The notes beneath the pieces are model-generated. The model was given only the letters and a program-made list of their open reading frames with translations, was not told the DNA's origin and made no database searches. Below, in pieces: positions 563 to 24,359 of a DNA stretch of 64,000 bases; position 1 is the first letter of the stretch; every line of letters starts with the position of its first letter. This DNA comes from Endozoicomonas elysicola (GTDB lineage Bacteria > Pseudomonadota > Gammaproteobacteria > Pseudomonadales > Endozoicomonadaceae): the NCBI RefSeq assembly GCF_000710775.1, contig NZ_JOJP01000001.1:2215729-2279728 (forward strand). Reading direction: 5' to 3'. Position numbers and translations under genes: made by a program.

Positions 563-1747
563 TTAAAGGAAAAAATCAGTAGTTTCACGGCCCATCACGA
601 CACCGCCAAAGTTGCGTGCATACTTGGCAGGCTGGTTGGCAACGTGTGTACGACCGGTCTGAATATCACGGAAAGCCTGGTTAACTTTGTGACCATTATG
701 AATAGCAGCTGAGCCACAGTGCAGGTAAAGCTCTGTAATTGCATCGGCACAACGAGAAGCGACAACCGCAGAGTCATAACGCATTTTAACGCGTTCTTCG
801 ATGGCCAGAGGTTCACCTTCTTCAGCGCGCTCACTCAAAATATCAAAGTTTTTGAAGAGAATGGTTTTCAAATCGCTGACGACCATCATCGCATTAGCCG
901 CTGCAGTTTGTGCGCCAGGGTCTTCAACAACCGCTTTCCCGTCATGAAGGGCAATGCGCTTGCGGTTAAAGTCAACGAAATCATCCACGGCACCTTTCAG
1001 TGCGCCAATAGCTGCTGAAGAAACGGCGCGAACAAAGATCTGTCCGAAGGGCAGCTTGAACAGTGGTGCAGTGTTTACTGCATTGCCTGGGCTGTTCTGC
1101 ATAAAACCATCCAGAGAGCGGTGCGTGCGGTACTCTGGCACAAATTTGTCTTTTACCACGACATCATGAGAGCCGGTAGCCTGCAGCCCCATGGTGTCCC
1201 AGTTGTCCACGATCTCGTAATCTTCCCGAGGTACCAGGAATGTCCGGTAGTCAGGTGCCTCGCCTTCGTTTTTTGGCGGAACAATGGCTCCCAGAAATGC
1301 CCATTCGCAGTGCTTGGAGCCGGAGGAGAAGCCCCATTTACCGCTGAGCTTGTAACCACCTTCTACATGTTCCACTTTACCAACCGGCATATAAGAAGAG
1401 GAGATGAGAACGCTGGTGTCTTCACCCCAGACATCCTGGGCAGCGCGATCATCAAACAGGGCCAGCTGCCAGTTGTGGATAGCAACGACACCGAGAACCC
1501 AAGCTGAAGACATACAGCCTTCGGCCAGGGTCATCTGAACTTCGAAAAAGTCATGAGGCTTCAGCTCGTAGCCACCCCATTTTGCAGGCTGGAGAATTCG
1601 GAAGAAACCCGCTTCCTGAAAATCTGCAATGGTTTCGTCGTGCAGTTTGCCCTGGTTATTGGCTTCAGCTGTGCGCTCTTTCAGTACTGGCACCAATTCC
1701 CGGGCTCGTTCGTAGAGTTTCTGCCGAATCTGATCTTGATCACTCAT
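563..1747 (-). CDS. hsaA: 3-HSA 4-monooxygenase, oxygenase component (HsaA/TesA2-like)
   Basis: The 394-residue protein has the acyl-CoA-dehydrogenase fold of class D flavin-dependent monooxygenases and matches the usual HsaA length. Recognisable segments are an N-terminal helical domain, the middle beta-domain GLQATGSHDVVV and a C-terminal helical region with HCGSAAIHNGH. HsaA uses reduced FMN supplied by HsaB to hydroxylate 3-hydroxy-9,10-secoandrosta-1,3,5(10)-triene-9,17-dione at C4, giving the catechol cleaved by HsaC. The reductase HsaB lies 1.3 kb away on the other strand, separated by a zinc-finger ORF, so the two components are probably transcribed divergently. The start ATG at 1747 has a GGAG about 11 bases upstream. 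Other group D hydroxylases (4-hydroxyphenylacetate type) share the fold; the steroid neighbourhood decides the assignment. Confidence 0.85.
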   Translation of the reverse strand: MSDQDQIRQKLYERARELVPVLKERTAEANNQGKLHDETIADFQEAGFFRILQPAKWGGYELKPHDFFEVQMTLAEGCMSSAWVLGVVAIHNWQLALFDDRAAQDVWGEDTSVLISSSYMPVGKVEHVEGGYKLSGKWGFSSGSKHCEWAFLGAIVPPKNEGEAPDYRTFLVPREDYEIVDNWDTMGLQATGSHDVVVKDKFVPEYRTHRSLDGFMQNSPGNAVNTAPLFKLPFGQIFVRAVSSAAIGALKGAVDDFVDFNRKRIALHDGKAVVEDPGAQTAAANAMMVVSDLKTILFKNFDILSERAEEGEPLAIEERVKMRYDSAVVASRCADAITELYLHCGSAAIHNGHKVNQAFRDIQTGRTHVANQPAKYARNFGGVVMGRETTDFFL

Positions 1748-2134
1748 TATTATTATCTCCAGTTGTCACCGGTTTGGATGAGGCCTTACCTGGATTTGAT
1801 CAGTATCTTCTACTGTTGGCTGGCGCCAATTGGGTTTATTCCTGGCAAGACCACTGTACTCCAGTTCCCCGAAAGCACGCTCCGGTAGGGCGCTCTTAAC
1901 TGTGGATTGAAACAGTCTGGCAGGCAACCGACATACTCTAAATGGACCATCTTGCATACGGTTGGAGAAACTTATATGGATGTTTATTGTCTTTTGATTG
2001 TATGACGTATATCTGGCAGATTGCCGGAAAGAGCCGATTTTGCATCAGGTCAGATGGCGGGGGCTCCATAAGTCAATAGTTTTAAGTGTCATATAGCTCT
2101 TAGAGCTTCAAATACCTTAATTTGGGTTGTTGAT
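1748..2134. other. Intergenic region upstream of hsaA, no gene supported
   Basis: About 390 bp separate hsaA (minus) from the zinc-finger ORF (plus). The only ORFs here are short, have no recognisable protein character and lack ribosome binding sites. The AT-rich part around 1970-2130 is suited to divergent promoters. A TGGACCATCTTGCAT stretch at 1943-1957 loosely resembles the 17-bp element found upstream of hsaB and hsaD, but the match is too weak to call. Confidence 0.4.
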
Positions 2135-2772
2135 GTGCAAGGGCCTCAAATCGATATTCAATATTGCCAGTCCTCATCTAGTGGAACGAGTGATCGATCT
2201 GATGATGTTGGACGAAGTTTTAGTGGTCGAGGGGTTAAAACTCAAAAGGAAGTTCTTTTATTTGCAAAACAATCAAAGATGGGCGGTCAGGTGATGTTTG
2301 ATTGTGCATTATACAATGACTGTAAAGGTAAGCAATTTGGGCTAATGGTCAAGCATCTAAACAAAACTCATTTCATGGTCAGGCCATTTCAGTGTGCTGA
2401 TTGTAATGTTGGTTTTCATAACTCCGCACTGCTTGCTGGCCATCGTCACACTACAAAGCATCTCTCTAATACAAAGTATCAACATGAGAATGTTTTTGAT
2501 TCAGTCTATTATTCTCGAAATGAACCTTATTCTGTGGAAGCTTGTGCAATAGAAAAGCAAGTTTCTAAAGACGATATGATAGCCCCTTTGAAGAGGGGTT
2601 CAAAGCTACTTATCAACGTAAACTTGAAGCTCATATTGATGAGCTGGAAGAGGAGGAATATGACATTGTATTTAACTGGCTGCGTCCTGCAGGGCTATTT
2701 GAAATTGGCAGTGATAAGCACATCGAACTCATAGAGAGGCTTCATAAGATAAGAGTGCTAAATTTGCGATAA
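2135..2772 (+). pseudogene. C2H2 zinc-finger protein gene with one frameshift
   Basis: The first frame (GTG at 2135) encodes two zinc-finger-like units. The first is C57-x5-C63-x10-H74-x4-H79. The second is a canonical C87-x2-C90-x12-H103-x5-H109 with a Phe before the first Cys, joined by a short linker containing RPF. Around 2585-2590, in a C4T3 run, the coding signal moves to the next frame. That frame reads an acidic, well-formed tail (EEGFKATYQRKLEAHIDEL, then a FNWLRPAGLFEIG segment) and stops at 2772. Adding one base in the run would give about 212 residues. Classical tandem C2H2 fingers are eukaryote-like and rare in bacteria. A role in binding DNA, or as a secreted effector in host cells, is inference only. 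It sits between hsaA and hsaB without evident metabolic reason. The GTG start is uncertain. A sequencing error is the alternative to a true break. Confidence 0.6.
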
Positions 2773-2946
2773 GAAAATTGAACTAAGATCATTGCAATAT
2801 TCATTGTTTCCCTATGTTGAGCGACTTCCCGTGACGCCGGGTTCATAGCCCTGCAGTATTTATTCTCTTACTTGCTTATGTGTAAATAGTGCTTGCCTGA
2901 TTAACTCTGTTTTCTGGCAGAAGCACCATTTTAGCTGTTAGTCCCC

Positions 2947-2963
2947 TTGGACGATGATGCTCT
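2947..2963 (+). promoter_or_regulatory. Candidate shared operator upstream of hsaB
   Basis: TTGGACGATGATGCTCT lies 107 bp upstream of the hsaB start. A copy differing at one base occurs at 19564-19580 upstream of hsaD, and both are preceded by a GCTGT...TAGTC stretch at nearly the same spacing. Function is inferred; the regulator is unknown. Confidence 0.45.
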
Positions 2964-3070
2964 CTGGTCACAACGACACAATTCAGGCAGCGCTGTTGTA
3001 AGTGCATCGGAGGCTATTCTCAGACAGCCTCGAAAAACGTATTCTCAGCGAATTGATCCAGGAGCGGATA

Positions 3071-3586
3071 ATGACTAATTCCAAACAGCGCCATGAACCG
3101 TTGAAAGAGCAGATGCTTCAATCCATGCGCCGCCTGGCCAGCTCTGTGACTGTTGTTTCCTCCACAAATGGGGAGCAGCGTCATGCGATGGCGGCGACTG
3201 CTGTGACTTCTTTGTCCGTTGAGCCACCTTCATTGCTGGTTTGTGTTAATCAGTCTACGGCCATGCATGCGCTTCTGGAAGAAGGTGTGGATTTTTGTGT
3301 CAATATTCTCAGCCGTGAGCAGGAAGAAGTTTCGGCCATGTGTGGCGGCAAGGCGCATGGTGAAGACCGTTTTCTGACAGGTAACTGGGAGAGCAGTGAA
3401 GAAGGTCTGCCCTATCTCTCAGATGCGCAGTCAGTGCTGATTTGTGAGCAGGATGGTAAATACAGCTACGGCACACACACCATCTATATAGGTCGCATCA
3501 AACAGATTCAGAACAGTGAGGATGTCAGCCCACTGATTTATGTTGATGGCCGTTATACAACCTCCGCCGAGGCGGTAACAGCCTGA
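3071..3586 (+). CDS. hsaB: Flavin reductase component of 3-HSA hydroxylase (HsaB/TesA1-like)
   Basis: The 171-residue protein has the small flavin reductase fold (FMN-binding split barrel): LASSVTVVSS near residue 25, the AMAATAVTSLSVEPPSLLVCVN core near 40-65, the FCVNILS strand, and GRYTT at the C-terminus. It would reduce FMN with NAD(P)H for the HsaA oxygenase. The ATG at 3071 is chosen because AGGAG at 3060-3064 sits six bases before it and the family N-terminus starts there; a longer reading frame from 3002 has no such signal. It is followed after 49 bp by the KstD-like gene, with the SDR and KshB-like genes in series, so it probably leads a steroid-ring operon. Reductases of other two-component hydroxylases look the same; the assignment rests on hsaA nearby. 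Confidence 0.83.
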   Translation: MTNSKQRHEPLKEQMLQSMRRLASSVTVVSSTNGEQRHAMAATAVTSLSVEPPSLLVCVNQSTAMHALLEEGVDFCVNILSREQEEVSAMCGGKAHGEDRFLTGNWESSEEGLPYLSDAQSVLICEQDGKYSYGTHTIYIGRIKQIQNSEDVSPLIYVDGRYTTSAEAVTA

Positions 3587-3635: not shown

Positions 3636-5336
3636 ATGAGTCGTCCATCCGAAGAACGAAATGCTTTAAAGGTAGAGAGTGCGGACCAGATCCAGTGGCA
3701 CGATGAGCGTGATGTTGTCGTGGTTGGTTTTGGTGGTTCGGGTGTGGCGGCGGCGCTTGAGGCTCGTTATCACCGTGTTTCTGTATTGGCGCTGGATCGC
3801 TTTTTTGGTGGTGGTGCTACGGCACGCAGCGGTGGCGTCGTATACTCCGGTGGGGGGACCGAGTTTCAAAAAGCAGAAGGTTTCGATGATACCCCGGAGG
3901 AGATGTTTAATTACCTTCGTCAGGAAACAGGCGATGCGGTAAAAGAGGAAACACTTAAGCGTTTCTGTGATCAGAGTGCGACGAATCTGCGTTGGCTGCA
4001 GAGTCATAATGTTGAGTTCTCTGGTCAAATTCCACCGGTGAAAACGTCCTATCCAAGTGATAAGTACTATCTCTATTACTCCGGTAATGAGGCTGTCGGA
4101 AGTTATGCAAAGCATGCGAAGCCTGCTCCCCGGGGGCATCGGGCGAAAGGTCCGGGTCTTTCCGGTGCGTCTCTGTTTGCACCGTTAAAAGCTTCCGCCC
4201 TTGCCAGGGGGGTTGAATTACAGGTTCAAAGTGATGTTCGTCGTCTGGTGTGTGATGAATCCGGATCGGTACTCGGTGTAGAAGTTCGTCGTTTGATGCC
4301 CGGTACTAAAGCGGCGCGCAATCATAAACGGTGGTCTAATCTGGCGACGGCTATTCATAATTATTCTCCCAAGCTTGCTTTCAAGGTCCGTGGCAAGGTT
4401 CGGGCTCTCGAAGAAAGTGCCGGAGTTGTTCAATACATTCGCGCCAGAAAAGGGGTGGTTCTGACTGCGGGTGGTTTCATCTTTAACCGTGAAATGGTCA
4501 AACAGTACGGCCCAAAATATCAGGAAGGTTTATCACTGGGAACCACAGGGTGCGACGGCAGTGGTATTCAGATGGGCATGGGCGCGGATGCAGCGATTGA
4601 TCGAATGGATAAGCTGAGTGCCTGGCGATTTATTAACCCTCCGCTGGCCTGGGCACAGGGGATTGTGGTTAATGATCACGGCGAGCGTTACTGCAATGAA
4701 GAGGTTTATGGAGCCAAGCTGGGTTATGAGATGGTTGAGCATCACAATGGCCGTGCAACACTGATTCTTAATAAAGACCTCTTCAAACAGGCATTTAATC
4801 AGGTGTTGCCAGGTAAGATCTGGTTTTTCCAGACTGCTCCAGCCTTGATGAGCATGTATCTGAACTGCAAGAAGGCCAGCTCTATTGCTGAACTGGCGAA
4901 AAAGATTAAGGTTCCTGAAGGCGCACTGGCGGCCACAATCCAGAGTTATACCGATGCAGCAAAGGGCCTTGCAGAAGATGAATTAGGTAAGTCCAGCGGA
5001 TTTCTGGCGCCTCTGGATCAGGGCCCCTGGTATGCAATGGATATCTCCTTCAATAGTTCTGTTTTCCCCTGCCCAATGATTACTCTGGGCGGTCTGAAGG
5101 TGAATGAGGAAACTGGCCAGGTTCTGGATCAAAAAGGGGATGGAATATCCGGCTTGTACTCTGCAGGTAGAAATGCGATTGGTGTGGCTTCAAACCTATA
5201 CGTAAGTGGTCTTTCAATTGCTGATTGCATTTTTTCTGGTCGTCGTGCTGGTAGCAGCGTGGCCCGGGTTGGTGAGAAATTAGTGAATACAGCGGAGCAG
5301 TCCGCAAGTAAGGAGGCTGTAAATGAAGCGGGTTGA
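3636..5336 (+). CDS. FAD-dependent 3-ketosteroid dehydrogenase family protein (KstD-like)
   Basis: The 566-residue flavoprotein belongs to the fumarate reductase/3-ketosteroid dehydrogenase family. An FAD-binding Rossmann motif DVVVVGFGGSGVAAA is near residues 25-40, followed by GGGATARSGG. The C-terminal FAD segment TLGGLKVNEETGQVLD...GLYSAGRNA closes the fold. Family members oxidise the steroid A ring (delta-1 or delta-4(5alpha) dehydrogenation). The C-terminal NLYVSGLSIADCIFSGRRAG differs from the classical delta-1 KstD ending, so the exact bond oxidised is left open. The ATG at 3636 follows a purine-rich AGAGAG. The next gene starts inside this one (14-bp overlap), showing translational coupling with the SDR. 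Its place beside hsaB, the SDR and a KshB-like reductase fits ring A/B activation. Confidence 0.75.
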   Translation: MSRPSEERNALKVESADQIQWHDERDVVVVGFGGSGVAAALEARYHRVSVLALDRFFGGGATARSGGVVYSGGGTEFQKAEGFDDTPEEMFNYLRQETGDAVKEETLKRFCDQSATNLRWLQSHNVEFSGQIPPVKTSYPSDKYYLYYSGNEAVGSYAKHAKPAPRGHRAKGPGLSGASLFAPLKASALARGVELQVQSDVRRLVCDESGSVLGVEVRRLMPGTKAARNHKRWSNLATAIHNYSPKLAFKVRGKVRALEESAGVVQYIRARKGVVLTAGGFIFNREMVKQYGPKYQEGLSLGTTGCDGSGIQMGMGADAAIDRMDKLSAWRFINPPLAWAQGIVVNDHGERYCNEEVYGAKLGYEMVEHHNGRATLILNKDLFKQAFNQVLPGKIWFFQTAPALMSMYLNCKKASSIAELAKKIKVPEGALAATIQSYTDAAKGLAEDELGKSSGFLAPLDQGPWYAMDISFNSSVFPCPMITLGGLKVNEETGQVLDQKGDGISGLYSAGRNAIGVASNLYVSGLSIADCIFSGRRAGSSVARVGEKLVNTAEQSASKEAVNEAG

Positions 5337-6072
5337 TGGAAAGGTTTGTATTATCACCGGTGCCGCCAGTGGTATGGGTAAAGAAGATGCACTTTTGTTT
5401 GCAGCCGAAGGTGCAAAGGTGGTGCTGACAGATCTGAATGAAGACGCCGGTAAAGCCCTTGCTGCAGAAATTGGTGAAAATGCGCTGTTTATTCGTCAGG
5501 ATATCAGCAGTGAGGCAGACTGGCAGAACGTAATAAAAGAAACATTGAATGTTTTTGGTCGGTTGGATGTATTGGTCAATAATGCGGGTATTTTGATTCC
5601 TGGTTCTATTGAAGATACCTCTCTGGATCTTTGGCAAAAGATTAACCGGGTGAATGGGGATGGTTATTTCCTTGGCTGTAAGTATGCAGTTAAGGCGATG
5701 AAAGAGACCGGTGGTGGCTCAATCATCAATATGTCATCGGTTGCAGCACTGGCAGGTATGCCACATTTCTGTGCGTACTCTGCCTCCAAGGGGGCGGTCA
5801 CCGCGTTGACCCGTGCCGTTGCGGTTCACTGTCGAGAGCGTGGTTATCGGATACGTTGTAACAGTGTTCATCCTGATGGTGTTGATACCCCCATGACTCA
5901 GCCTTTTACCGGTGGGCCGCAGTCAGAAGAAATAAAAAATGATCCGAAAAGTCGGATGTGTGATCCGAAAGAGATCGCCAGTCTGGTGTTGTTTCTGGCA
6001 TCTGACGAATCTAGGTTCGTCAATGGCAGTGAGTTTAAAATTGATAACGCCCAGACGGTATCAGGGGTTTAG
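5323..6072 (+). CDS. Short-chain dehydrogenase, hydroxysteroid dehydrogenase type
   Basis: The 249-residue classical SDR has the TGAASGMG coenzyme motif at about residue 12, the Asp of VLTDLNE favouring NAD(H), NNAG near 87, the catalytic Ser in MSSVAA near 140 and YSASK near 154. It ends with the usual VNGSEFKIDNAQTVSGV. Closest in style to 3alpha/20beta- or 17beta-hydroxysteroid dehydrogenases, it would interconvert a steroid hydroxyl and ketone, probably feeding 3-keto substrate to the overlapping flavoprotein. Its start overlaps the previous gene by 14 bp and has a strong AAGGAGG about 8 bases upstream, so the two are translationally coupled. The position oxidised cannot be read from the sequence, and SDR substrate predictions are generally weak. 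Confidence 0.8.
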   Translation: MKRVDGKVCIITGAASGMGKEDALLFAAEGAKVVLTDLNEDAGKALAAEIGENALFIRQDISSEADWQNVIKETLNVFGRLDVLVNNAGILIPGSIEDTSLDLWQKINRVNGDGYFLGCKYAVKAMKETGGGSIINMSSVAALAGMPHFCAYSASKGAVTALTRAVAVHCRERGYRIRCNSVHPDGVDTPMTQPFTGGPQSEEIKNDPKSRMCDPKEIASLVLFLASDESRFVNGSEFKIDNAQTVSGV

Positions 6073-6093: not shown

Positions 6094-7191
6094 ATGAGTA
6101 GTTCAGAAGCTATAGCGGTTCAAGAGGTTGCACAAGAAAGTGCACCAAAACAGCGCTACCATCGTCTGGAAGTAGCTGCTGTCATCGAAGAAACCCACGA
6201 TAGCAAGTCCGTGGTGTTCAGTATTCCTGAAGAGGTCCGGGAGCAATTCGAATATCTGCCTGGTCAGTTTCTGACGTTGAAAGTCCCTTATGAAGGCAAG
6301 CAGCTCACTCGTTGTTACTCATTGGCCAGCTCGCCACATGTGGATCCTGAGCATAAGGTGACGATCAAGCGGGTGGACGGTGGTCGAATATCTAACTGGA
6401 TTAACGACGGAGTTAAAGCCGGTGATCTGATTGAAGTGATGCCGCCAGCAGGTTTGTTTCATCTAACCAGCAAAACCCCTCCTGGCGATATTGTTCTCTT
6501 TGGTGGTGGCTCTGGTATCACACCGGTGTTCTCAATCCTGAAGTCAGCACTGAAAACAACCGATCGCAAAGTAAAGCTGATTTATGCTAACAGGGATGAC
6601 CAGTCGGTCATCTTCAAGGATGAAATGAAAGCGATTGCTGCAGAGAATATTGATCGTCTGGAGGTGGTTCATATTCTGGACTCTGTTCACGGCTTTCTGA
6701 CTCAGCCCATGGTAAAACAGTTGGTTGAAGGGCATGAGAATGGTGAGTATTTTATCTGCGGCCCAGGGCCTTTCATGGATACGGTTGAGTCATCACTGAT
6801 CGGTTTGGGTGAGCCCCGTGAGCGGATTCACACTGAGCGTTTTGTCTCTCCACCGGATCCTGATCAGGCCGAAGCTGCAGCTAAAGAAGCAAAAGCTGCA
6901 GCAGAAGGCTCAATTACTACCCAGTTCGTAGCTGAGCTGGATGGTGAGGTGCATGAAGTCGCCTATGAGAAAGGGGATACCCTGCTTCAGGCTATGCAGA
7001 AAGTGGATCTTGATGCCCCGGCATCCTGTGAAGAAGGCATGTGTGGTGCCTGTATGTGCATGGTAGAGAGTGGTGAGACTCAGCTGGGTCTTAACGAGGT
7101 ACTTTCAGAAGCTGAGCTAGAAGAAGGGTGGACGTTAGCCTGTCAGAGTCGTCCATTGAGCAATGACGTTAAGGTTAAGTTCCCTGATTAA
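6094..7191 (+). CDS. kshB: Ferredoxin-type oxidoreductase, KshB-like (3-ketosteroid 9alpha-hydroxylase reductase)
   Basis: The 365-residue protein has the FNR-like order FAD domain, NAD domain, C-terminal plant-type [2Fe-2S] domain. The FAD motif RCYSLASSP is near residue 73, the GGGSGITPV NAD loop near 140, and the iron-sulfur cluster ligands follow CEEGMCGAC (Cys 312, 317, 320) with a fourth Cys near 350. This matches KshB/HmpB and PaaE-type reductases, which pass electrons from NADH to a Rieske oxygenase. In a steroid cluster the partner would be KshA, which hydroxylates C9 and triggers B-ring opening. No Rieske oxygenase gene is in the window, so KshA must be elsewhere or another partner is used. 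An Ala/Glu-rich linker (AEAAAKEAKAAAEG) joins the NAD and Fe-S domains. AGGAG lies 10 bases before the start. Confidence 0.78.
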   Translation: MSSSEAIAVQEVAQESAPKQRYHRLEVAAVIEETHDSKSVVFSIPEEVREQFEYLPGQFLTLKVPYEGKQLTRCYSLASSPHVDPEHKVTIKRVDGGRISNWINDGVKAGDLIEVMPPAGLFHLTSKTPPGDIVLFGGGSGITPVFSILKSALKTTDRKVKLIYANRDDQSVIFKDEMKAIAAENIDRLEVVHILDSVHGFLTQPMVKQLVEGHENGEYFICGPGPFMDTVESSLIGLGEPRERIHTERFVSPPDPDQAEAAAKEAKAAAEGSITTQFVAELDGEVHEVAYEKGDTLLQAMQKVDLDAPASCEEGMCGACMCMVESGETQLGLNEVLSEAELEEGWTLACQSRPLSNDVKVKFPD

Positions 7192-7358: not shown

Positions 7359-7430
7359 AACCACAAAGCACACAGAGCTCACAAAGATTATATTTCTTGA
7401 TTCTTTGTGTTCTTCGTGACCTTTGTGGTT
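7359..7430. repeat. Dispersed hairpin repeat, family A copy 1
   Basis: Inverted arms AACCACAAAG...CTTTGTGGTT enclose CACAGAGCTCACAAAG and CTTTGTGTTCTTCGTGA. It is one of seven related hairpins in the window, all between genes. It lies just upstream of the acyl-CoA synthetase gene and could terminate or separate transcription. Confidence 0.8.
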
Positions 7431-7467
7431 CCAAGTGGTTCAAAAAATAAATAAGAAGCGACCGGTT

Positions 7468-9048
7468 ATGATTGATCTGCAAGCAGTAAATACAATTCCT
7501 GATCTGATGGATGCCGCAGCTAATACCTATGGTAGCCGGTCTGCGATTGAAGATGAAAACGTGACTCTGAGTTTTATAGAGCTGAATGAGTTGCGCCTTA
7601 AAGCCGCCGCTTCATTGCTTTCTATGGGGGTAAAGCCAGGGGATCGTATAGCAGTCTGGGCTCCCAATATTTATGAATGGATTGTGGCGGCCACTGCATT
7701 GCAGACCGTCGGGGCAGCACTCGTTCCATTGAACACCCGAATGAAAGGTTCTGAAGCAGGTTATGTCCTTCGTGCCAGTGGTGCGAAACTGTTGTTCTGT
7801 ATTCATCAGTTTCTAAACTGCCAGTACCCGGACATGCTGGAAGGTGAGGCGCTTCCTGAACTGGAGACGATTGTCACATTCCGTGGGCAAGGTGCCGAAA
7901 ACTGTATTTCCTGGAATGAGTTTCTGCAAAAGTCAGAAAATACTTCTTCTGAACAAGTTCAGTTACGTCAGCAGCACGTAGCATCTGACTCCATGTCTGA
8001 TTTGCTGTTTACCTCGGGCACTACGGGTAAGCCCAAAGGAGTGATGACCAGTCATGGTCAGAACCTTCAGGTGGTTGAGGACTGGAGTGGGGTTGTTGGG
8101 TTAACGGAAGCGGATCGTTATCTGATTGTTAATCCTTTCTTCCACTCTTTTGGCTACAAGGCAGGCTGGATGGCTGCCTTAATGAGAGGGTGTACAATTC
8201 TGCCACTGCAAATATTTGATGTGTCTACCATTCTGCAGATGATTTCCGACGAGAAAGTCTCTGTACTGCCGGGGCCTCCGACACTCTATCAATCCATTCT
8301 GGCTCATCCGGAACTGGATACATTTGATATTTCATCATTACGGGTTGCGGTCACGGGGGCGGCTGCGATTCCTGTTTCCATGATTCACCAAATGCGGGAT
8401 GAGCTCGGTTTTGACACCATTATCACCGCTTATGGCCTTACAGAGGTTTGTGGCTTTGCGACTATCTGTCGTTCCGGAGATGACCCGGAATTGATTGCCA
8501 ATACTTCCGGTCGTGCCATGCCCGGTATAGAAGTTTGCTGTGTTGATGGTGAGGGAAATAAGGTGGCTGCAGGAGTACCGGGGGAGGTTGTGATTCGAGG
8601 CTATAACCTGATGCAAGGGTACTTTGAAAACCCAGAGGCTACTGCAGAAACCATCGATTCTGATGGCTGGTTGCATACAGGTGACATCGGGGTAATGGAC
8701 GAGCAGGGTTACCTGAAAATTACCGATCGGATGAAGGATATGTTCATTACCGGAGGTTTCAATGTCTACCCGGCAGAGATAGAAAACCTGATGAGCAGTC
8801 ATAAGGCCATTGCGCAGGTCGCTGTGGTAGGGATACCCGATGAAAGAATGGGTGAAGTGGCGATGGCTTATATTATTCCAGTATCCGGTGAGAGTCTTAG
8901 TAAAGACGATGTGGTAGCCTGGTGCCGACAGGAAATGGCAAACTATAAGGTGCCAAGGCATGTAGCTATTGTGGATAGCCTGCCAACCAATGCGTCAGGC
9001 AAAGTGCTGAAATTTGAATTAAGAGAGAGTGCAAAGAAACTGGTGTAG
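7468..9048 (+). CDS. fadD3: FadD3-like acyl-CoA synthetase (HIP-CoA ligase candidate)
   Basis: The 526-residue ANL-superfamily ligase has all core motifs: the P-loop LLFTSGTTGKPKG near residue 180, AYGLTEVCG near 320, WLHTGDIG near 405, DRMKDMFITGGFNVYPAEIE near 420, and the C-terminal catalytic Lys in NASGKVLKFELR near 511. It would activate a carboxylic acid to its CoA thioester through an acyl-adenylate. In mycobacteria FadD3 activates HIP, the C/D-ring remnant released by HsaD, and sits next to fadE30 and ipdF. The same neighbours occur here, which supports that role. The ATG at 7468 is preferred to an upstream start at 7423, which falls at the edge of the hairpin repeat. A different fatty or aromatic acid substrate cannot be excluded. 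Confidence 0.75.
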   Translation: MIDLQAVNTIPDLMDAAANTYGSRSAIEDENVTLSFIELNELRLKAAASLLSMGVKPGDRIAVWAPNIYEWIVAATALQTVGAALVPLNTRMKGSEAGYVLRASGAKLLFCIHQFLNCQYPDMLEGEALPELETIVTFRGQGAENCISWNEFLQKSENTSSEQVQLRQQHVASDSMSDLLFTSGTTGKPKGVMTSHGQNLQVVEDWSGVVGLTEADRYLIVNPFFHSFGYKAGWMAALMRGCTILPLQIFDVSTILQMISDEKVSVLPGPPTLYQSILAHPELDTFDISSLRVAVTGAAAIPVSMIHQMRDELGFDTIITAYGLTEVCGFATICRSGDDPELIANTSGRAMPGIEVCCVDGEGNKVAAGVPGEVVIRGYNLMQGYFENPEATAETIDSDGWLHTGDIGVMDEQGYLKITDRMKDMFITGGFNVYPAEIENLMSSHKAIAQVAVVGIPDERMGEVAMAYIIPVSGESLSKDDVVAWCRQEMANYKVPRHVAIVDSLPTNASGKVLKFELRESAKKLV

Positions 9049-9109: not shown

Positions 9110-9817
9110 TTAATTTGAGGGTTTAAAGGATCCCATCATAATGTTGAAGGTATCCGTTACCGGGTAGAGTGGATAGAAGGTGCGCTGGTTGGCAAAATTT
9201 CGGCTCAGATCATATTTAAAGTCGCTGAGAATAAAGTCTGGAATCTCTGGAATCCATTTGTGCACCACTTTCCTGAATGTGAATACCTCGCTTCTGGTTT
9301 GGTAGCCGGAGTATGAGTCTGGGAAAGTCGTTAATACGGTTACAATCTCTCCATCATCATCTGCCCGCATACGAAATTTAGGGGTTAAGTTAATTTCGTA
9401 GGCCCGGGAAATGCCAACATTAAATTTTGATTTGGAAATGATTCGAATAAAAAAATCTTGTGGAGTAAGCTCATTGGCCTTTGCTCTTCCCTCAGGAAAA
9501 ACAAACTCAAATAAATGACTTGAGTGATAGCGTTGAACCTGATGCTTTAATAGCTTTAATGAGTCTTCTGCAAAGAAGTTGGCGAAGTCATCAAAGTCAA
9601 AAGTATTCAAGGTTCGTATCATCTCAATGATGGTGGCTTTCAGTTCTTCTTTGTCACTCTCGGATAACGACGCATCCATGGCAGGCATGGGGGATGTTAT
9701 TTCTGTAGGGTCTGGCTTTTTCGAATGTGAGTTATTTTCTGACTCACCAAGACATGATTGGACAGTGACGAAAACGGCAATCATCCCGATAAGGAGTGAT
9801 TTAATGACACTGGACAT
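9110..9817 (-). CDS. Exported protein of unknown function
   Basis: The 235-residue product begins with a signal peptide: Lys near the start, a hydrophobic core LLIGMIAVFVTV and a Cys at VQSC that could be a lipobox, though Gln at -2 is atypical. The mature part starts with a Ser/Asn/Lys-rich linker, then a predicted alpha+beta domain with a helical FDFDDFANFFAED segment reminiscent of NTF2/SnoaL folds. I do not recognise the family. The ATG at 9817 is chosen because CCTCCT (AGGAGG in reading sense) is six bases upstream and the signal sequence begins there, rather than the longer frame from 9865. It stands alone on the minus strand inside the steroid cluster, convergent with fadD3 and divergent from the acyl-CoA dehydrogenase genes, so it may be regulated with them or be an unrelated insertion. 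Confidence 0.7.
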   Translation of the reverse strand: MSSVIKSLLIGMIAVFVTVQSCLGESENNSHSKKPDPTEITSPMPAMDASLSESDKEELKATIIEMIRTLNTFDFDDFANFFAEDSLKLLKHQVQRYHSSHLFEFVFPEGRAKANELTPQDFFIRIISKSKFNVGISRAYEINLTPKFRMRADDDGEIVTVLTTFPDSYSGYQTRSEVFTFRKVVHKWIPEIPDFILSDFKYDLSRNFANQRTFYPLYPVTDTFNIMMGSFKPSN

Positions 9818-14036: not shown

Positions 14037-14101
14037 TCAGTTAACCCGGTAGGAAAGCCGGGTTGAAGCTTTCCAGAATGCTCGAGCAAGGAATAAAAAC
14101 A

Positions 14102-15388: not shown

Positions 15389-15412
15389 AAAAAACAGAGG
15401 ATGATAATAACA

Positions 15413-15796: not shown

Positions 15797-16218
15797 CGCT
15801 GGAAGAGCGCATAGAAAAGCTGGAAGCGCTGGAAGATATCCGTCAGCTGAAACACCGTTACCTGAACGCCTGTGACCTGAAAGAAGTGGAAGCTATCAGA
15901 GACTGCTTTGCCGAGGGTGACATTGTCATCGATTATGGCCCTATTGGCCTTTTTAAAGATCGTGACAGTTTTGTTGGGCTGTTCCAGGAGATGGCCTGTC
16001 ATGATCATGTCATTGACCTTCACCATGGCGCTAATCCTGAAATTGAAGTGGATGGTAACCAGGCTTCAGCAAGATGGGCGCTCTATTACTTCAATATCAA
16101 TGGGGATACGGGGGCAACCCGTCAGCTCGGCGGTTTTTATCAGGATGAGTATCGTCGTATTGCTGGTTCATGGAGGATCATTAAAACAACTTTCAAGGCT
16201 CACTCTATAAGCGAATGA
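15793..16218 (+). CDS. SnoaL/NTF2-like family protein
   Basis: The 141-residue protein is an alpha+beta cone of the SnoaL-like type: N-terminal helix LEERIEKLEALEDIRQLKHRY, helix LKEVEAIRDCFAEGDIVIDYG, and C-terminal strands GGFYQDEYRRIAGSWRI with the terminal IIKTTFKAHS. Proteins of this type include dehydratases, isomerases and small binding proteins. Its start overlaps the ketosteroid isomerase stop by four bases, so both are probably made together and act in the same steroid step or on related intermediates. No catalytic role can be assigned from the visible residues. It converges on the DUF819 gene, 35 bp away. Confidence 0.75.
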   Translation: MTLEERIEKLEALEDIRQLKHRYLNACDLKEVEAIRDCFAEGDIVIDYGPIGLFKDRDSFVGLFQEMACHDHVIDLHHGANPEIEVDGNQASARWALYYFNINGDTGATRQLGGFYQDEYRRIAGSWRIIKTTFKAHSISE

Positions 16219-18154: not shown

Positions 18155-18643
18155 TCAGGCTTTTGAAATGGTTTTATTGCTGGGAACACCCGTCTCATAA
18201 TAGCTTTTCATATTCCGGGCAATTTTGTTCACTGCACCGTCAAGCGCTTTTTTAACAAACAGTTTATCCAGCAACTTACCCAGGAAACCAAAGCGGACTG
18301 TGTAGCTCATGGTGGTGGTCAGTTGAGTTTTTTCACCTTTTGGCTGGATTTTGTAGATAAAACAGGCTTCCCGGAAAGGGGCTGGCGCAGGACCATCACC
18401 TTCGTGAAGACGAATCACAAAGCCCTGTTTTTCCCGCCAGTGGGTGACCGTTTCATCGAGAAATTTTCCGTTTTTCTGAAAGACTCTTCGGCTGGCGCCT
18501 TTACCTTCCTCTGGTCCGGGGTGGAGCTCACAGCCAGTCAAGTTGGGAACGTAATTTACGGCTTGAGTAAAATCACGAAGAATTTCCCAGGATTTCTCCA
18601 GGGGTAAGTCAATATCGATGGTGCTGGTTGATTCTGAAGTCAT
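18155..18643 (-). CDS. SRPBCC (START-like) family protein
   Basis: The 162-residue protein has the polyketide cyclase/START-like helix-grip pattern: a short first strand STIDIDLPLEKSWEILRDF, a Val/Pro-rich VNYVPNLTGCELHPG loop, central strands (GFVIRLHEGDGPAPAPFREACFIYKI) and the long C-terminal helix with MKSYYETG. These proteins bind hydrophobic ligands such as lipids or sterols in a deep cavity, so a steroid-handling role fits the position next to steroid SDR and HsaD genes. That function is inferred from fold and context only. The start is 27 bp downstream of the SDR stop on the same strand, so the two form a small minus-strand operon divergent from hsaD. Confidence 0.72.
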   Translation of the reverse strand: MTSESTSTIDIDLPLEKSWEILRDFTQAVNYVPNLTGCELHPGPEEGKGASRRVFQKNGKFLDETVTHWREKQGFVIRLHEGDGPAPAPFREACFIYKIQPKGEKTQLTTTMSYTVRFGFLGKLLDKLFVKKALDGAVNKIARNMKSYYETGVPSNKTISKA

Positions 18644-18669: not shown

Positions 18670-19464
18670 TTATGATGATGTGTTTTCTGCCGCATTCAGG
18701 AATGCCGGTTTTTCTCCACCACCATGAACAGTGATATCAGCACCACTAACGTAGGATGAAAGTGGTGATGCCAAGTACAAACAAGTGTCGCCTATATCGG
18801 AGGGAGTTGCCAGTCGCTGTAGTGGAACTGTTCGGGCGACACTGGCAATACCGTCTTCATCACCGTAATGCAGGTGAGCCTGTTCTGTGAGAATCAAACC
18901 AGCAGTAACCGCATTCACTCGAACCTTCGGTGCCCACTCGACAGCCAGCGATTGTGTCAGGTTTAAAAGACCTGATTTTGCGGCACCGTAGGCTGCGGTT
19001 CCTGGAGAAGGGCGTTTGGCGCTGACGCTGCAGATATTGATAATCATCCCGCCTTCAGCCTGTTCCTGCATGACGGCATTGGCTTTCTGGCACAGGTTCA
19101 GCGGTGCGATCAGGTTCAGGCGAATGATGGACTCAGAAAAACGGGGTGATACGGTGGCTGCATCGGCATTGGGAGCGCCACCGGCATTGTTGACCAGAAC
19201 ATCCAGGCGTCCAAACGTTTTGATGGTGCTGCCAATCAGTTGATCGATCTGCTCCAGATCCCGGACATCACAGGGAAAGAAGGTCGCCGTATTTTGACTT
19301 CCCTGTGGATTAACTGCAGAAGGCAGGTTATCCGGTTCCTGACGTCCACAGATTACGACATGGGCACCCTGCTGTAAGAAACGTTCACTGATGCCTTTGC
19401 CGGCACCTTTGCCACCACCAGTGACCAAAACGACTTTACCGGTAAAATCCAGAGGGTTACTCAT
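18670..19464 (-). CDS. Short-chain dehydrogenase in steroid cluster
   Basis: The 264-residue classical SDR has TGGGKGAGKG at about residue 15 (coenzyme loop), CGRQ after strand two pointing to NADP(H) preference, NNAGGAPN near 90, Ser in CSVSAKR near 145, YGAAKSG near 158, and a C-terminal YVSGADITVHGGGEKP. Related SDRs in mycobacterial and proteobacterial steroid clusters act on hydroxyl groups of ring or HIP intermediates, but the position cannot be read from the sequence. The ATG at 19464 is chosen rather than 19473 because the purine-rich AAAAAGGG then has normal spacing. It is transcribed with the SRPBCC gene and divergently from hsaD, across about 290 bp that contain the candidate shared operator. 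Confidence 0.75.
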   Translation of the reverse strand: MSNPLDFTGKVVLVTGGGKGAGKGISERFLQQGAHVVICGRQEPDNLPSAVNPQGSQNTATFFPCDVRDLEQIDQLIGSTIKTFGRLDVLVNNAGGAPNADAATVSPRFSESIIRLNLIAPLNLCQKANAVMQEQAEGGMIINICSVSAKRPSPGTAAYGAAKSGLLNLTQSLAVEWAPKVRVNAVTAGLILTEQAHLHYGDEDGIASVARTVPLQRLATPSDIGDTCLYLASPLSSYVSGADITVHGGGEKPAFLNAAENTSS

Positions 19465-19563
19465 TACTACCATCCCTTTTTATTAGCTATGCGCATTTGT
19501 TCTTTTATTTTTTCATTAAGTCTACGATGTTACCCACTGAGTCTGGGGCTGTATTAGTCTTGT

Positions 19564-19750: not shown

Positions 19751-20572
19751 ATGAGTGCAATTCCAGAGGGGCATTTTGTTCAATTGGAAGATGGTCTGTC
19801 ACTTCACTACCACGAAGCCGGTCAGGGAGAAGCTGTACTGTTCCTGCATGGCAGTGGACCCGGTGCCAGTGGTTACAGTAATTTCAAAGGCAACTACCCG
19901 ATTTTTGCAGAAGCCGGTGTGAGAGCTATCGTTCCTGATCTTCCTGGTTATGGTTTGAGTGATAAACCGGAAACTGAATACACCCTCGATTTTTTTGTTG
20001 CCGCCGTCAAAGGTTTGATCGATCAACTGGCTATTGATTCTGTCACCCTGGTGGGTAACTCACTGGGTGGCGCCATTGCCATCAAACTGACGCTCGACTA
20101 TCCCGAGCTGGTTACAAAACTGATTCTTATGGCCCCGGGTGGATTGATGGAGAAAGAACAGTACTTCCAGGAGATGGAAGGTATTCAGAAGATGGCGGCT
20201 GCGTTTGCTTCTGGAGAACTAAAAGAAGCTTCTGGAATGAAACGTCTGTTGGGTCTTCAGCTCTATGATGCGTCACAGGTGACCGATGAAACGGTGAATG
20301 AACGAGTTGCTGTCGTCCATGAACAGCCTGCCTGTGTTCTGTCAACCATGCAGGTGCCAAACATGACCTCCCGTCTTCATGAGTTGAACTGCCCCATCTT
20401 CGGTATCTGGGGAGTCAATGACAAGTTTTGTCCTTCCCGTGGTGCCGACACCATGATGAAGGGCTGCAGTAATATCCGTTTTACCCTGCTGAGTGAGTGT
20501 GGTCACTGGGTGATGGTTGAACATCAGGACTGGTTTAACCGGCAATGTCTGGATTTTATAAAACACGGCTGA
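19751..20572 (+). CDS. hsaD: Meta-cleavage product hydrolase (HsaD/TesD-like)
   Basis: The 273-residue alpha/beta hydrolase has the meta-cleavage product hydrolase signature HGSGPGASGYSNF near residue 37 (oxyanion hole), the nucleophile Ser104 in GNSLGG, Asp224 in GVNDKFCP and His252 in CGHWVMVEH. HsaD hydrolyses the C-C bond in 4,5-9,10-diseco-3-hydroxy-5,9,17-trioxoandrosta-1(10),2-diene-4-oate. The products are HIP (for FadD3) and 2-hydroxyhexa-2,4-dienoate (for HsaE). AAGGAG about ten bases upstream supports the start. It leads the hsaD-hsaE-hsaG-hsaF run. Biphenyl or phenylpropionate hydrolases (BphD, MhpC) are close relatives; the ring-degradation neighbours favour the steroid enzyme. 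Confidence 0.85.
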   Translation: MSAIPEGHFVQLEDGLSLHYHEAGQGEAVLFLHGSGPGASGYSNFKGNYPIFAEAGVRAIVPDLPGYGLSDKPETEYTLDFFVAAVKGLIDQLAIDSVTLVGNSLGGAIAIKLTLDYPELVTKLILMAPGGLMEKEQYFQEMEGIQKMAAAFASGELKEASGMKRLLGLQLYDASQVTDETVNERVAVVHEQPACVLSTMQVPNMTSRLHELNCPIFGIWGVNDKFCPSRGADTMMKGCSNIRFTLLSECGHWVMVEHQDWFNRQCLDFIKHG

Positions 20573-20690
20573 TGAATTGTTAAGGGGCATCTATTCCCAG
20601 ACAGTCTCCTCGCTCCCATGTCCCGGCGCAGGAGTATGTGACAGGTTTTAGATTCCCATTCAGAACGTGGGAATGAGGCGAATAAAAATA

Positions 20691-21482
20691 ATGAATAAAG
20701 ATAAAAGAGCGCAGTACGGTGATGAACTCTATGAGGCCTTAACCAATGGCCAGAGCATTGCCCCGCTAACGGAACGTGAGAGCGATATTTCTATTGAAGA
20801 TGCCTACCACATTTCTCTTCACATGGTGGAACGTCGGGTTGCTGCTGGCGATAAGATTGTGGGCAAAAAAATAGGCGTAACCTCCAAAGCGGTTCAGGAC
20901 ATGCTGAATGTACATCAGCCAGACTTTGGATTTATTACCGAGCAGATGTGGTTCAACAATGGGGAAACTATTTCCTGTTCAGAAAACAAACTCATACAAC
21001 CCAGGGCTGAAGGAGAAATTGCCTTCAAACTGAAAAAGGATCTGGTGGGGCCTGGTGTGACTGAACAGGATGTACTGGATGCAACCGAGTCGGTTTTTCC
21101 CTGTTTTGAAATTGTAGACTCCCGCATTCATAACTGGCAGATCAAGATACAGGATACGGTTTCTGATAACGCTTCCTGTGGTGTTTTTGTGTTGGGTGAA
21201 GAGGCTGTTGATCCACGGTCTATTGATCTGCCCGCCGCGCAGATGAAAGTTTATAAAAATGGTCAGTTGATCAGTGAAGGTGTTGGGGCAGCCGTTCAGG
21301 GGGACCCATTAACGGCGGTTGCCTGGTTGGCCAATACCCTTGGTGAGTTTGGCATTCCTTTCAAGGCGGGTGAAATAATTCTGTCTGGCTCCCTTGTACC
21401 TCTTGAGCCTGTTCAGCTAGGTGATGTGATGGAGCTGGAGATTGAAGGTTTAGGCAAGGCCGCTGTGACATTTGGAGAATAA
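20691..21482 (+). CDS. hsaE: 2-hydroxypenta(hexa)-2,4-dienoate hydratase (HsaE/TesE-like)
   Basis: The 263-residue protein matches the length of MhpD/XylJ-type hydratases and shows their pattern: [15 protein letters not shown] near residue 52, QPDFGFI, the metal-binding region [14 protein letters not shown] near 108, [13 protein letters not shown] near 140 and the C-terminal [19 protein letters not shown]. It hydrates 2-hydroxyhexa-2,4-dienoate to 4-hydroxy-2-oxohexanoate, using a divalent metal. The ATG at 20691 is taken because the family N-terminus ([14 protein letters not shown]) starts there. The aldehyde dehydrogenase gene starts four bases after its stop. The order hsaE, hsaG, hsaF is the standard lower meta-pathway arrangement. 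Confidence 0.88.
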
Positions 21483-21486
21483 AAAG

Positions 21487-22401
21487 ATGAGTCAGAAACT
21501 GAAGGCAATCATCATCGGGCCGGGCAATATTGGTACCGACCTGTTGATGAAAATGAAGCGCTCTGAATGGATCGAGCCGGTCTGGATGGTGGGTATTGAC
21601 CCTGAATCAGAAGGTTTGAAACGTGCTCGTGAAATGGGCATCAAGACCTCTTCAGAAGGTGTTGATGGTGTGCTTCCTCATGTTATTAAGGACGATATCC
21701 GCATCGCGTTTGATGCAACGTCAGCTTACGTACATGCAGAGAACAGCCGTAAGCTGAACGAGCTGGGTGTGATCATGATTGATTTGACCCCTGCTGCTAT
21801 CGGTCCTTTCTGTGTGCCTCCTGTGAATCTCAGAGAACATACGGAAGAGTTGAAGCTCAACGTGAATATGGTGACCTGTGGTGGGCAGGCGACCATCCCC
21901 ATGGTGGCTGCTGTCTCTCGAGTTCAGGAAGTGGAGTACGGTGAGATTGTTGCCACCGTATCTTCCCGCTCAGTAGGGCCTGGTACACGACAAAATATTG
22001 ATGAATTTACCCGAACCACGTCCGGAGCCGTTGAAAAGGTCGGTGGCGCCAAGAAGGGCAAGGCGATCATTATCATTAACCCCGCTGAACCACCACTGAT
22101 CATGCGTGACACCATCCACTGTCTGACCACAGAAGAGCCGGATCAGAGAGCGATCACTCAGTCGGTTCACGACATGGTGGCTGAGGTTCAGAAATATGTA
22201 CCGGGCTATCGTCTGGTGAATGGTCCTATTTTTGATGGCAACCGGGTTACGGTCTTTATGGAAGTGGAAGGCCTTGGGGACTTTCTGCCCAAGTATGCCG
22301 GTAATCTGGATATTATGACGGCGGCTGGCCTAAGAACGGCTGAGATGTTTGCTGAAGAAGCGGCGAAGGGCGCTATCACTTTACCGGCACGTGGAGAATA
22401 A
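21487..22401 (+). CDS. hsaG: Acylating acetaldehyde/propanal dehydrogenase (HsaG/TesF-like)
   Basis: The 304-residue enzyme has the N-terminal NAD motif [15 protein letters not shown] near residue 9 and the catalytic Cys131 in [10 protein letters not shown], with the C-terminal dimerisation part ending in ADMF-like helices. It converts propanal or acetaldehyde plus CoA and NAD+ to the acyl-CoA. In this family (DmpF, HsaG) it forms a complex with the aldolase encoded by the next gene and receives the aldehyde through an internal tunnel. GGAG precedes the ATG at 21487 by eight bases; the open frame from 21472 is not needed. Only three bases separate its stop from the aldolase start, consistent with stoichiometric expression. 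Confidence 0.92.
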
Positions 22402-22404: not shown

Positions 22405-23433
22405 ATGAACCTGAAAGGTAAAAAAGTCACCCTCCATGATATGTGTCTGCGGGACGGTATGCATGCCAAGCAGCATCAGATTTCTCTCGATGAAATGGTG
22501 AATATTGCCACTGCGATGGATGATGCCGGTATTCCCCTGATCGAAGTCACTCATGGTGATGGCCTGGGTGGGGCATCCGTTAACTATGGTTTTCCGGCCC
22601 ACAGTGATGAAGAGTATCTGGATGCCGTTATTCCCAAGATGAAAAATGCCAAAGTTTCTGCTTTGCAGCTGCCTGGTATAGGAACTCTTGATCACTTGAG
22701 AATGGCAAAAGATCTGGGGGTTTCCACCATACGGGTAGCAACGCATTGTACGGAAGCGGATGTGTCTGAGCAGCATATTGGCATGTCTGCCAAGATGGGC
22801 ATGGATACAGTGGGCTTTTTAATGATGGCGCATATGGTCAGTGCTGAGAAAATTCTGGAACAGGCCAAGCTGATGGAAAGCTACGGTGCAAACTGTATTT
22901 ACTGTACCGACTCTGCCGGTTATATGCTGCCGGATGAGGTGACAGATAAGCTTGGACTCCTTCGTGCAGAGCTAAAGCCTGAAACGGAGATAGGCTTCCA
23001 TGGTCATCACAATATGGCGATGGGTATTGCTAACTCTCTGGCAGCAATTGAAGCCGGAGCCAGTCGTATTGATGGTTCTGTGGCAGGCCTGGGTGCCGGT
23101 GCTGGTAATACACCATTGGAAGTGTTCGTTGCAGTGCTGGATCGCATGGGTGTTGAAACCGGTGTTGATCTTTACAAGATCAGTGATGTGGCTGAAGACC
23201 TGGTCGTGCCATTGATGGATCAGCCGATCCGAATTGACCGTGATGCACTGACGCTGGGCTATGCCGGGGTTTACTCATCCTTCCTGTTGTTTGCCAAGCG
23301 TGCAGAAGCGAAGTATGGCGTTCAGGCTCGTGATATTCTGGCCGAGCTGGGTCGTCGCGGAACCGTCGGTGGTCAGGAAGATATGATCGAAGATCTTGCC
23401 CTGACCATGGCCAAAGAGCAGGGACTGATTTAA
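22405..23433 (+). CDS. hsaF: 4-hydroxy-2-oxovalerate/hexanoate aldolase (HsaF/TesG-like)
   Basis: The 342-residue TIM-barrel aldolase of the HMGL/DmpG family has the N-terminal metal and substrate motif [15 protein letters not shown] near residue 12, the metal-binding GFHGHHNM near 197, [13 protein letters not shown] near 230 and a C-terminal communication domain. It cleaves 4-hydroxy-2-oxohexanoate to pyruvate and propanal (acetaldehyde with the shorter substrate) and passes the aldehyde to HsaG. Gene order and spacing match the DmpFG/HsaFG pairs. A compact hairpin (23447-23477) follows and may end the transcript. It is one of the clearest assignments of the window. Confidence 0.93.
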
Positions 23434-23446
23434 GCAAAACTCTATA

Positions 23447-23477
23447 GACCACAAAAGGCTCAGTGCTCTTTGTGGTC
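23447..23477. repeat. Dispersed hairpin repeat, family A copy 4 (short)
   Basis: The arms GACCACAAA and TTTGTGGTC surround AGGCTCAGTGCTC. It is the shortest copy of the family and lies 14 bases after the aldolase stop, followed by TTCCTGGTTAAAAA. It can serve as a weak terminator before the next SDR. Confidence 0.65.
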
Positions 23478-23516
23478 TTCCTGGTTAAAAATTCCTTAAA
23501 TAGCAGACTTCAGCCT

Positions 23517-24359
23517 ATGAACAATTTTAATAATAAAGTGGCTGTTATCACCGGTGCGGGTGGTGGCATTGGAAGAGAGGTGGCGTTGCAGCTGGCGAAA
23601 GAAGGCTGCCATCTTGCCCTTGGAGATATCAGTCAGCAAGGGTTAGATGAAACCGCAAAGCTGCTAGAACCCTATGGTGTAAAAGTCAGCTGCCATATTG
23701 TTGATGTCACTGACCGGAAACGAATGGAAGCACTGCCTGAAGAGGTTATTGAGGTTCATGGTGCTGTAAACCTGTTGGTCAATAATGCCGGTATTACTCT
23801 TCAGAGCAGTTTTTCAGACCTGAGTATTGAACACTGGGAACTGGTGATTGGCATCAATCTGTGGGGTGTGATTTATGGTACCAAAGCTTTCCTGCCTTAT
23901 CTGAAAGAGCAGGGTAAAAAAGGTTTGGATAATGCGCATATTATTAATATGTCCAGTCTGGCAGGCTTTATTGGCATGCCCAATCAGTCTTCTTATTGCG
24001 CAACGAAGTCAGCGGTTAGAGCGATCAGTGAAACACTGTGGGCTGAATTGCATATGGATAATATTGGGGTGACCAGTGTTCATCCCGGTGCGATTAAAAC
24101 CAATATACTTAACGCTCACCTCGACAAAGCGGGTAACCCGGCAAATGCTGCTGCCATTAACAGAAAGGTGGATAAGTTTGCTATGGATACTGATAAGGCT
24201 GTCGCTAAAATGCTAAATGCGGTCAGGAAGAATAAACAGAGAGTGGTTATAGGAACTGATTCACATTTGGTAGAAAAGTTTAAGCGCCTTTTACCTTCTG
24301 CTATCCATAAGCCTTTTGCGAAGATGTTTGCTAAAGAGCAGCTTGCCCGGACCAGTTGA
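23517..24359 (+). CDS. Short-chain dehydrogenase with extended C-terminus
   Basis: The 280-residue SDR has ITGAGGGIGREVA near residue 12, GDIS after strand two, NNAGITLQSS near 90, Ser in NMSSLAGFIG near 145 and YCATKSAV near 160. The C-terminal 60 residues are basic and helical (VEKFKRLLPSAIHKPFAKMF), a feature of membrane-associated SDRs that act on hydrophobic substrates. Substrate is unknown; the steroid cluster position suggests a sterol or lipid hydroxyl. The start at 23517 is chosen because the Rossmann fold begins right there and the longer open frame (from 23463) starts in the repeat. It is the last gene of the steroid region, convergent with sctU. Confidence 0.75.
   Translation: MNNFNNKVAVITGAGGGIGREVALQLAKEGCHLALGDISQQGLDETAKLLEPYGVKVSCHIVDVTDRKRMEALPEEVIEVHGAVNLLVNNAGITLQSSFSDLSIEHWELVIGINLWGVIYGTKAFLPYLKEQGKKGLDNAHIINMSSLAGFIGMPNQSSYCATKSAVRAISETLWAELHMDNIGVTSVHPGAIKTNILNAHLDKAGNPANAAAINRKVDKFAMDTDKAVAKMLNAVRKNKQRVVIGTDSHLVEKFKRLLPSAIHKPFAKMFAKEQLARTS

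Follow-up and report, generated by a model that had tools for sequence, protein, structure and literature searches.

A 64,000-nucleotide window of the Endozoicomonas elysicola DSM 22380 chromosome (G000:C1:2215729-2279728, where G000 is the genome of this strain) carries, between nucleotides 563 and 24359, part of the genes for aerobic steroid catabolism by the 9,10-seco route, which are spread over three or more loci of the chromosome, a reading to which we assign a probability of about 95%. The steroid genes of this segment are full-length open reading frames (ORFs) in the ORF listing. Searches of NCBIfam models with curated cut-offs, Pfam domains and PDB chains of solved structures showed that they encode HsaA, HsaB, a ketosteroid dehydrogenase, a KshB/PaaE-type reductase, a FadD3-type ligase, two acyl-CoA dehydrogenases, an IpdF-like short-chain dehydrogenase/reductase (SDR), a MaoC protein, a thiolase, a ketosteroid isomerase (KSI) and HsaD, HsaE, HsaG and HsaF, with an operon for a type III secretion system (T3SS) adjoining. 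This gene content is established and the enzyme activities are predicted by homology. The initial annotation described a near-complete 9,10-seco cluster; the named genes are present with strong family matches, and the grouping of ring A/B, A-ring fragment and C/D-ring fragment (HIP) genes with a KSI is borne out by family and structure matches, but other steps are encoded on distant loci and the window holds roughly half of a genuine steroid-degrading pathway.

The steroid pathway of E. elysicola is already known, since Ding et al. (2016, PMC4781883) reported testosterone gene clusters, noted a T3SS and described complete testosterone degradation by the same strain. The conjecture that the DNA came from an Endozoicomonas-like steroid degrader thus agrees with published whole-cell testosterone degradation and weak growth of the type strain (PMC4781883), and the window sequence bears out a capacity already published for this marine animal symbiont. 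The additions made here are modest: a side-chain gene set, a BaiE-like gene and decay of the pathway in relatives. The features of the window assigned to the pathway or to its context are the following.

563-1747, reverse strand: hsaA, oxygenase of the 3-HSA monooxygenase (ring A hydroxylation); HsaA model 3.1e-115, 385 bits against a cut-off of 450.
3002-3586, forward strand: hsaB-like flavin reductase; RutF 7.9e-34, HpaC 6.9e-27, HsaB 2.6e-25, all under their cut-offs.
3636-5336, forward strand: 3-ketosteroid Delta4-(5alpha)-dehydrogenase, TesI type; PDB 4at0 6.5e-61.
5323-6072, forward strand: SDR dehydrogenase; best as cyclohexanecarboxylate dehydrogenase, under the cut-off.
6094-7191, forward strand: KshB/PaaE-type ferredoxin reductase with FAD, NAD and 2Fe-2S Pfam domains; PaaE 1.1e-76, under the cut-off.
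7423-9048, forward strand: fadD3-type acyl-CoA ligase; NF005801 735.8 bits, cut-off 657.
10105-11328, forward strand: acyl-CoA dehydrogenase, partner 1; IpdE2 model 1e-62 and PimD 4.7e-62, both under their cut-offs.
11334-12527, forward strand: acyl-CoA dehydrogenase, partner 2; PimC 1.5e-73, under the cut-off.
12763-13575, forward strand: ipdF-like SDR; NF005880/PRK07831 441.8 bits, cut-off 336.
13575-14036, forward strand: MaoC-like hydratase; PF01575 1.8e-25.
14063-15304, forward strand: thiolase, PRK07108 type; NF005494 567.6 bits against a cut-off of 615.
15365-15796, forward strand: Delta5-3-ketosteroid isomerase; steroid delta-isomerase PDB 1e3v 1.6e-34, residues 22-141.
15793-16218, forward strand: putative hydroxysteroid dehydratase, BaiE-like SnoaL_4 fold; PF13577 1.7e-29.
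19751-20572, forward strand: hsaD, meta-cleavage product hydrolase; BphD 3.4e-56 (190.5 bits) and HsaD 7.5e-54 (182.6 bits), both under their cut-offs.
20667-21482, forward strand: hsaE, 2-oxopent-4-enoate hydratase type; TIGR03220 407.5 bits against a cut-off of 408.8.
21472-22401, forward strand: hsaG, acylating aldehyde dehydrogenase; TIGR03215 480 bits, cut-off 282.
22405-23433, forward strand: hsaF, 4-hydroxy-2-oxovalerate aldolase type; TIGR03217 553 bits, cut-off 286.

Within the ring A/B group, HsaA matched the solved Mycobacterium tuberculosis HsaA structure (PDB 2rfq) at 3.1e-81 and is 96% identical to a protein of E. cretensis, and the adjacency of an hsaB-like gene to hsaA is also found in L005-L011. 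The gene at 3636-5336 had been labeled KstD-like; its closest structure is a Delta4-(5alpha)-dehydrogenase, and a Delta1-KstD identity is ruled out by the much weaker match to 4c3x (5.6e-26 against 6.5e-61 for 4at0). A genuine Delta1-KstD is encoded at C1:4430815-4432491 (597 bits, next match 122). The context of the SDR at 5323-6072, with a 72-75% identical protein encoded next to the Delta4-dehydrogenase gene of two Pseudomonas loci, L009 and L010, suggests that it takes part in steroid alcohol oxidation. The KSI named in the initial annotation is confirmed by its structural match. Among the HIP genes, the ligase at 7423-9048 would presumably act as HIP-CoA ligase, and the IpdF label of the SDR at 12763-13575 is one that we assume. 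The thiolase at 14063-15304 is there as annotated, but its fadA6-like identity appears doubtful because this PRK07108-type protein is under its cut-off while the thiolase in an ipd-type cluster elsewhere on the chromosome passes NF005865 (702 bits, cut-off 591).

Both hsaC and kshA, which the initial annotation proposed to look for in the rest of the genome, were found there by family and structure matches; their absence, named at that time as grounds for rejecting a steroid pathway, is therefore not the case. The hsaC gene is located at C1:4339290 (1.7e-94), and kshA at C1:4440210 (KshA_C 1.1e-78, solved KshA 4qdc 1.5e-120) with a weaker second copy at 3805171. Beside hsaC are genes for the ipd-cluster thiolase, an acyl-CoA dehydrogenase pair, two enoyl-CoA hydratases that score over their cut-offs, and a FabK-like IpdC-type reductase that is under its own; we take the reductase to be IpdC and an enoyl-CoA hydratase to be EchA20. 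The proposed search for ipdA/B/C and echA20 was successful by family match for the IpdC-like protein and the two hydratases, but IpdA and IpdB are named by position and synteny only, being two ORFs beside hsaC with same-order copies in G016, G021, G022, G023 and G024.

The order of the steps in the 9,10-seco pathway is established, and the genes could be placed along it as follows. KSI and the 3-ketosteroid dehydrogenases (Delta4-(5alpha) in the window, Delta1 at 4.43 Mb) would lead to androstadienedione, and KshA (4.44 Mb) together with the KshB-type reductase would hydroxylate C9, upon which ring B opens. HsaAB would then hydroxylate ring A, to be cleaved by HsaC (4.34 Mb) and HsaD, and HsaE, HsaG and HsaF would convert the small fragment to pyruvate and propionyl-CoA. 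The C/D-ring fragment would be activated by FadD3 and degraded by two acyl-CoA dehydrogenase/hydratase/thiolase sets and the IpdA/B/C-type enzymes (4.33-4.34 Mb).

Several observations weigh against the assignment to steroid catabolism. HsaA, HsaB, HsaC and HsaD are all under the curated equivalog cut-offs (385/450, 89/230, 317/450 and 183/400 bits, respectively), HsaC being so also in each of the 9 further family genomes where it was matched, and the 597 bits of Delta1-KstD are below its cut-off of 789. A KshB/PaaE-type reductase is indeed encoded at 6094-7191, but it matched no KshB-specific model and no PDB chain named KshB, and the name KshB given to it rests on context. The ORFs designated IpdA and IpdB had no NCBIfam match at E <= 1e-40, looser thresholds not having been searched. 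Growth of the strain on testosterone was very weak, with an OD of about 0.1, in the study of Ding et al. (PMC4781883), and coral metagenomes had few steroid-degradation hits and the eight tunicate ones none according to Holert et al. (2018, PMC5790920).

Could the steroid names be over-read in a cluster dedicated to other aromatic or alicyclic compounds, such as biphenyl-like aromatics or cyclohexanecarboxylates? HsaD does score slightly better as BphD (190.5 versus 182.6 bits), HsaE, HsaF and HsaG are generic meta-pathway enzymes, and the SDR at 5323-6072 has its best match, under cut-off, in cyclohexanecarboxylate dehydrogenase. However, the best solved matches of a true KSI, the Delta4-KSTD, KshA and HsaA are steroid enzymes, and the same strain degrades testosterone (PMC4781883), so that we regard this alternative as extremely improbable and retain the steroid pathway.

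The first 4 bases of the gene at 15793-16218 are also the last 4 of the KSI gene. By sequence, its putative product is closest to the bile acid 7alpha-dehydratase BaiE (4l8o, 5.2e-10), and its residues Y23, D28 and H77, invariant in the 3 of 3 orthologues aligned, align with BaiE residues that we take to be catalytic. When the predicted fold was compared using Foldseek, the top match by E-value was BaiE (4leh, 6.3e-9), while Rv3472 (2.5e-8) had the higher TM-score; the fold match is not specific, as other NTF2-like proteins score nearly as well, and the model was built on 3 sequences with pLDDT ranging from 78 to 41 over its five versions. The protein is considered a putative hydroxysteroid dehydratase. 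Orthologues with at least 68% identity are found in 5 of 37 family genomes including E. elysicola, a sixth genome having a 33% match only, and a second E. elysicola copy, 36% identical, is located at 3172666.

Beside kstD and kshA, the region C1:4385000-4445000 (L116, L146, L147) has the features of a side-chain gene set. It encodes a FadA5-type thiolase that exceeds its cut-off (614 bits, cut-off 515) and is closest to M. tuberculosis FadA5 (2.4e-150, next other thiolase 1e-65), and an acyl-CoA dehydrogenase pair. Also present, in a row, are genes for a protein with the ChsH2 zinc-ribbon and OB domains, a MaoC protein, an acyl-CoA dehydrogenase and a thiolase-fold protein; the MaoC and thiolase-fold proteins occupy the positions of ChsH1 and Ltp2, names that derive from fold and position only. 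The same region also encodes a reductase, an alkylsulfatase-like protein and a cytochrome P450 whose reading frame also has a marginal match to DUF4345. A LuxR-type domain protein is encoded near Delta1-KstD, the LuxR-domain regulator lying at L116:8644-9777.

The FadA5-type thiolase, the ChsH2-containing row and the BaiE-like gene adjoining KSI incline us slightly toward the view that the strain may also degrade steroids that retain a side chain, of the C24 (bile-acid-like) or C27 (sterol) type. The P450s argue the other way: no CYP125 or CYP142 is assignable among the three P450 genes of the genome, and the two that were compared with solved structures had CYP144 and EpoK as best matches. 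A literature search requiring Gammaproteobacteria, cholesterol degradation, FadA5 and side chain all four together found no report. With a side-chain module (FadA5, an acyl-CoA dehydrogenase pair, ChsH2 with its MaoC partner, Ltp2-like protein, P450 with the DUF4345-like domain, alkylsulfatase-like protein) and the BaiE-like gene in E. elysicola and several relatives, host sterols, sterol sulfates or bile-acid-like steroids, and not testosterone, may be what these bacteria naturally use; we tentatively propose this at somewhat less than even odds, together with the view that two or more lineages of the family are losing the pathway independently of each other. If so, such loss could serve as a marker of symbiont dependence on host steroid. 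The initial annotation raised a possible use of host or dietary steroids; Ding et al. considered testosterone in corals too dilute to be a food and a possible cue (PMC4781883).

The distribution of the pathway was analyzed in 37 Endozoicomonadaceae genomes. KshA_C was found in 10, the HsaA model at E <= 1e-60 in 10 and HsaC at E <= 1e-40 in 10. The HsaA match of G003 (273 bits) was rejected as a pathway marker, lowering the HsaA count from 10 to 9, because in the tree of HsaA proteins it sits on a long branch among those of Neisseriaceae and Wohlfahrtiimonas. The three markers kshA, hsaA and hsaC occur together in 9 genomes, and the tenth, G021, has hsaC and a kshA fragment. The presence of pathway genes in 10 of 37 genomes contradicts a 2025 paper (PMC12491435) that reports finding no genes for steroid utilization in any genome of the family. 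FadA5 is over its cut-off in 7 of 37 genomes, with no match at E <= 1e-140 in G022 and G010.

The pathway is visibly broken in two of the ten genomes, G010 and G021, which belong to different genera; this count covers the two inspected as broken, the other eight not having been checked gene by gene. In G010 (L130, L152, L153, L154) hsaA is in two pieces about 1.2 kb apart and fadD3, acadB and kshA are partial; no hsaE match was found at E <= 1e-60, and no hsaG, hsaD or KSI match within the stretches read. In G021 (L170-L172) hsaA, fadD3, kstD, kshB, hsaE, hsaF and kshA are fragmented, and the matches to hsaC, hsaD, ipdA, ipdB, ipdC, KSI and the BaiE-like gene are close to full length. Together with the side-chain genes, this decay pattern gives testable ideas on which host steroids matter.

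In an HsaA tree of 88 rows, from which hits with fewer than 330 aligned residues (apparently three: L073, L080, L101) were left out, the main-type Endozoicomonadaceae proteins form one clade of 10 rows (100/99), with Pseudomonas as its sister group (99/92). G008, G016 and G017 (L100, L103 and L099) have another type of HsaA, 44% identical to that of the window, which groups with sphingomonads on a long branch; G016 carries both types. The G+C content of the steroid region is 48.3%, against 47.8% in the remaining window.

The other features of the window are listed below.

9110-9865, reverse strand: unassigned protein with a signal-peptide-like N terminus; no NCBIfam or Pfam match at E <= 0.001.
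18155-18643, reverse strand: Polyketide_cyc2 family protein; PF10604 5.9e-15; same SDR neighbor in L150 and L180.
18670-19473, reverse strand: SDR, PRK07856 type; NF005893 396.7 bits, cut-off 255.
23463-24359, forward strand: SDR; L122 (G022) has a homologue next to kshA, and L180 (G018) one between kshA and hsaF.
24404-30834, reverse strand: T3SS genes sctU, sctT, sctR, sctQ, sctP-like and sctN; convergent neighbor, outside the pathway.

The unassigned protein at 9110-9865 has 40-80% identical copies in L148, L149 and L154 and is kept beside steroid genes in four genomes of one genus; its predicted fold, of low confidence (mean pLDDT 58), had no structural match at E <= 0.001. The ORF at 2135-2734 was rejected as a gene and is probably spurious, since family searches at E <= 0.001 gave nothing and L138, the locus of the closest relative, lacks a counterpart at E <= 1e-8; a C2H2 zinc-finger-like Cys/His spacing was noted in it by eye.

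The T3SS operon follows the steroid genes directly, as had been annotated, but on the opposite strand and convergently (24359 versus 24404), and is therefore no continuation of the steroid transcript. An adjacency that serves to coordinate steroid sensing or catabolism with injection into the host seems very unlikely to us, although in the GTDB genus of E. elysicola hsaF adjoins sctU in four of five genomes with the pathway (G008, G010, G017 and, with one SDR intervening, G000), the window-type SDR adjoins sctU at a contig end in the fifth, G016, in whose assembly hsaE was not found, and Ding et al. propose testosterone as an animal cue (PMC4781883). Apart from the convergent orientation, homologous sctU is adjacent to steroid genes in none of the five pathway-bearing genomes of a second genus (G018, G021, G022, G023 and G024), which rules out the T3SS as a general part of the steroid system in the family. 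In G010, moreover, the steroid genes decay while the neighboring sctU, sctT, sctR and sctQ are full length, sctN being cut by the end of the stretch read. The linkage appears to be an ancestral arrangement that members of one genus share. In L175 (G024:C26:330000-349999) hsaF is about 6 kb away from a different T3SS (sctU 27% and sctR 44% identical), the main T3SS of this genome being about 200 kb away, and the best sctU match of G018 (G018:C269:17166-18218) has one internal stop.

The system most closely related to the one described here is that of Endozoicomonas clusters I-VII (PMC4781883), which were reported from the same strain for the same 9,10-seco pathway with a T3SS noted, and to which our genes presumably correspond one by one. 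The main text of that paper assigns clusters III and IV mainly to fatty acid beta-oxidation, and part of them may be the side-chain set found here. Comamonas testosteroni, according to PMC8399759, has in common with E. elysicola a TesI-type Delta4-dehydrogenase, a Delta1-KstD and equivalents of HsaG and HsaF, but its TesH and TesI genes are adjacent whereas those for the Delta4- and Delta1-dehydrogenases are about 2.2 Mb apart in E. elysicola. With actinobacterial cholesterol catabolism E. elysicola shares HsaA (2rfq, 3.1e-81), KshA, FadA5, FadD3-family and ChsH2-type genes, and differs in that its HsaA to HsaD are under the equivalog cut-offs. The Pseudomonas clusters (L009-L030, L034) have HsaA proteins 69-72% identical to that of E. 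elysicola that form its sister clade, and L009 and L010 share with it the order hsaA-hsaB-Delta4KSTD-SDR-kshB, gene order having been seen for L009-L011 only; in L011, in contrast to E. elysicola, where they are on a distant locus, the ipd-type genes are found beside hsaA.

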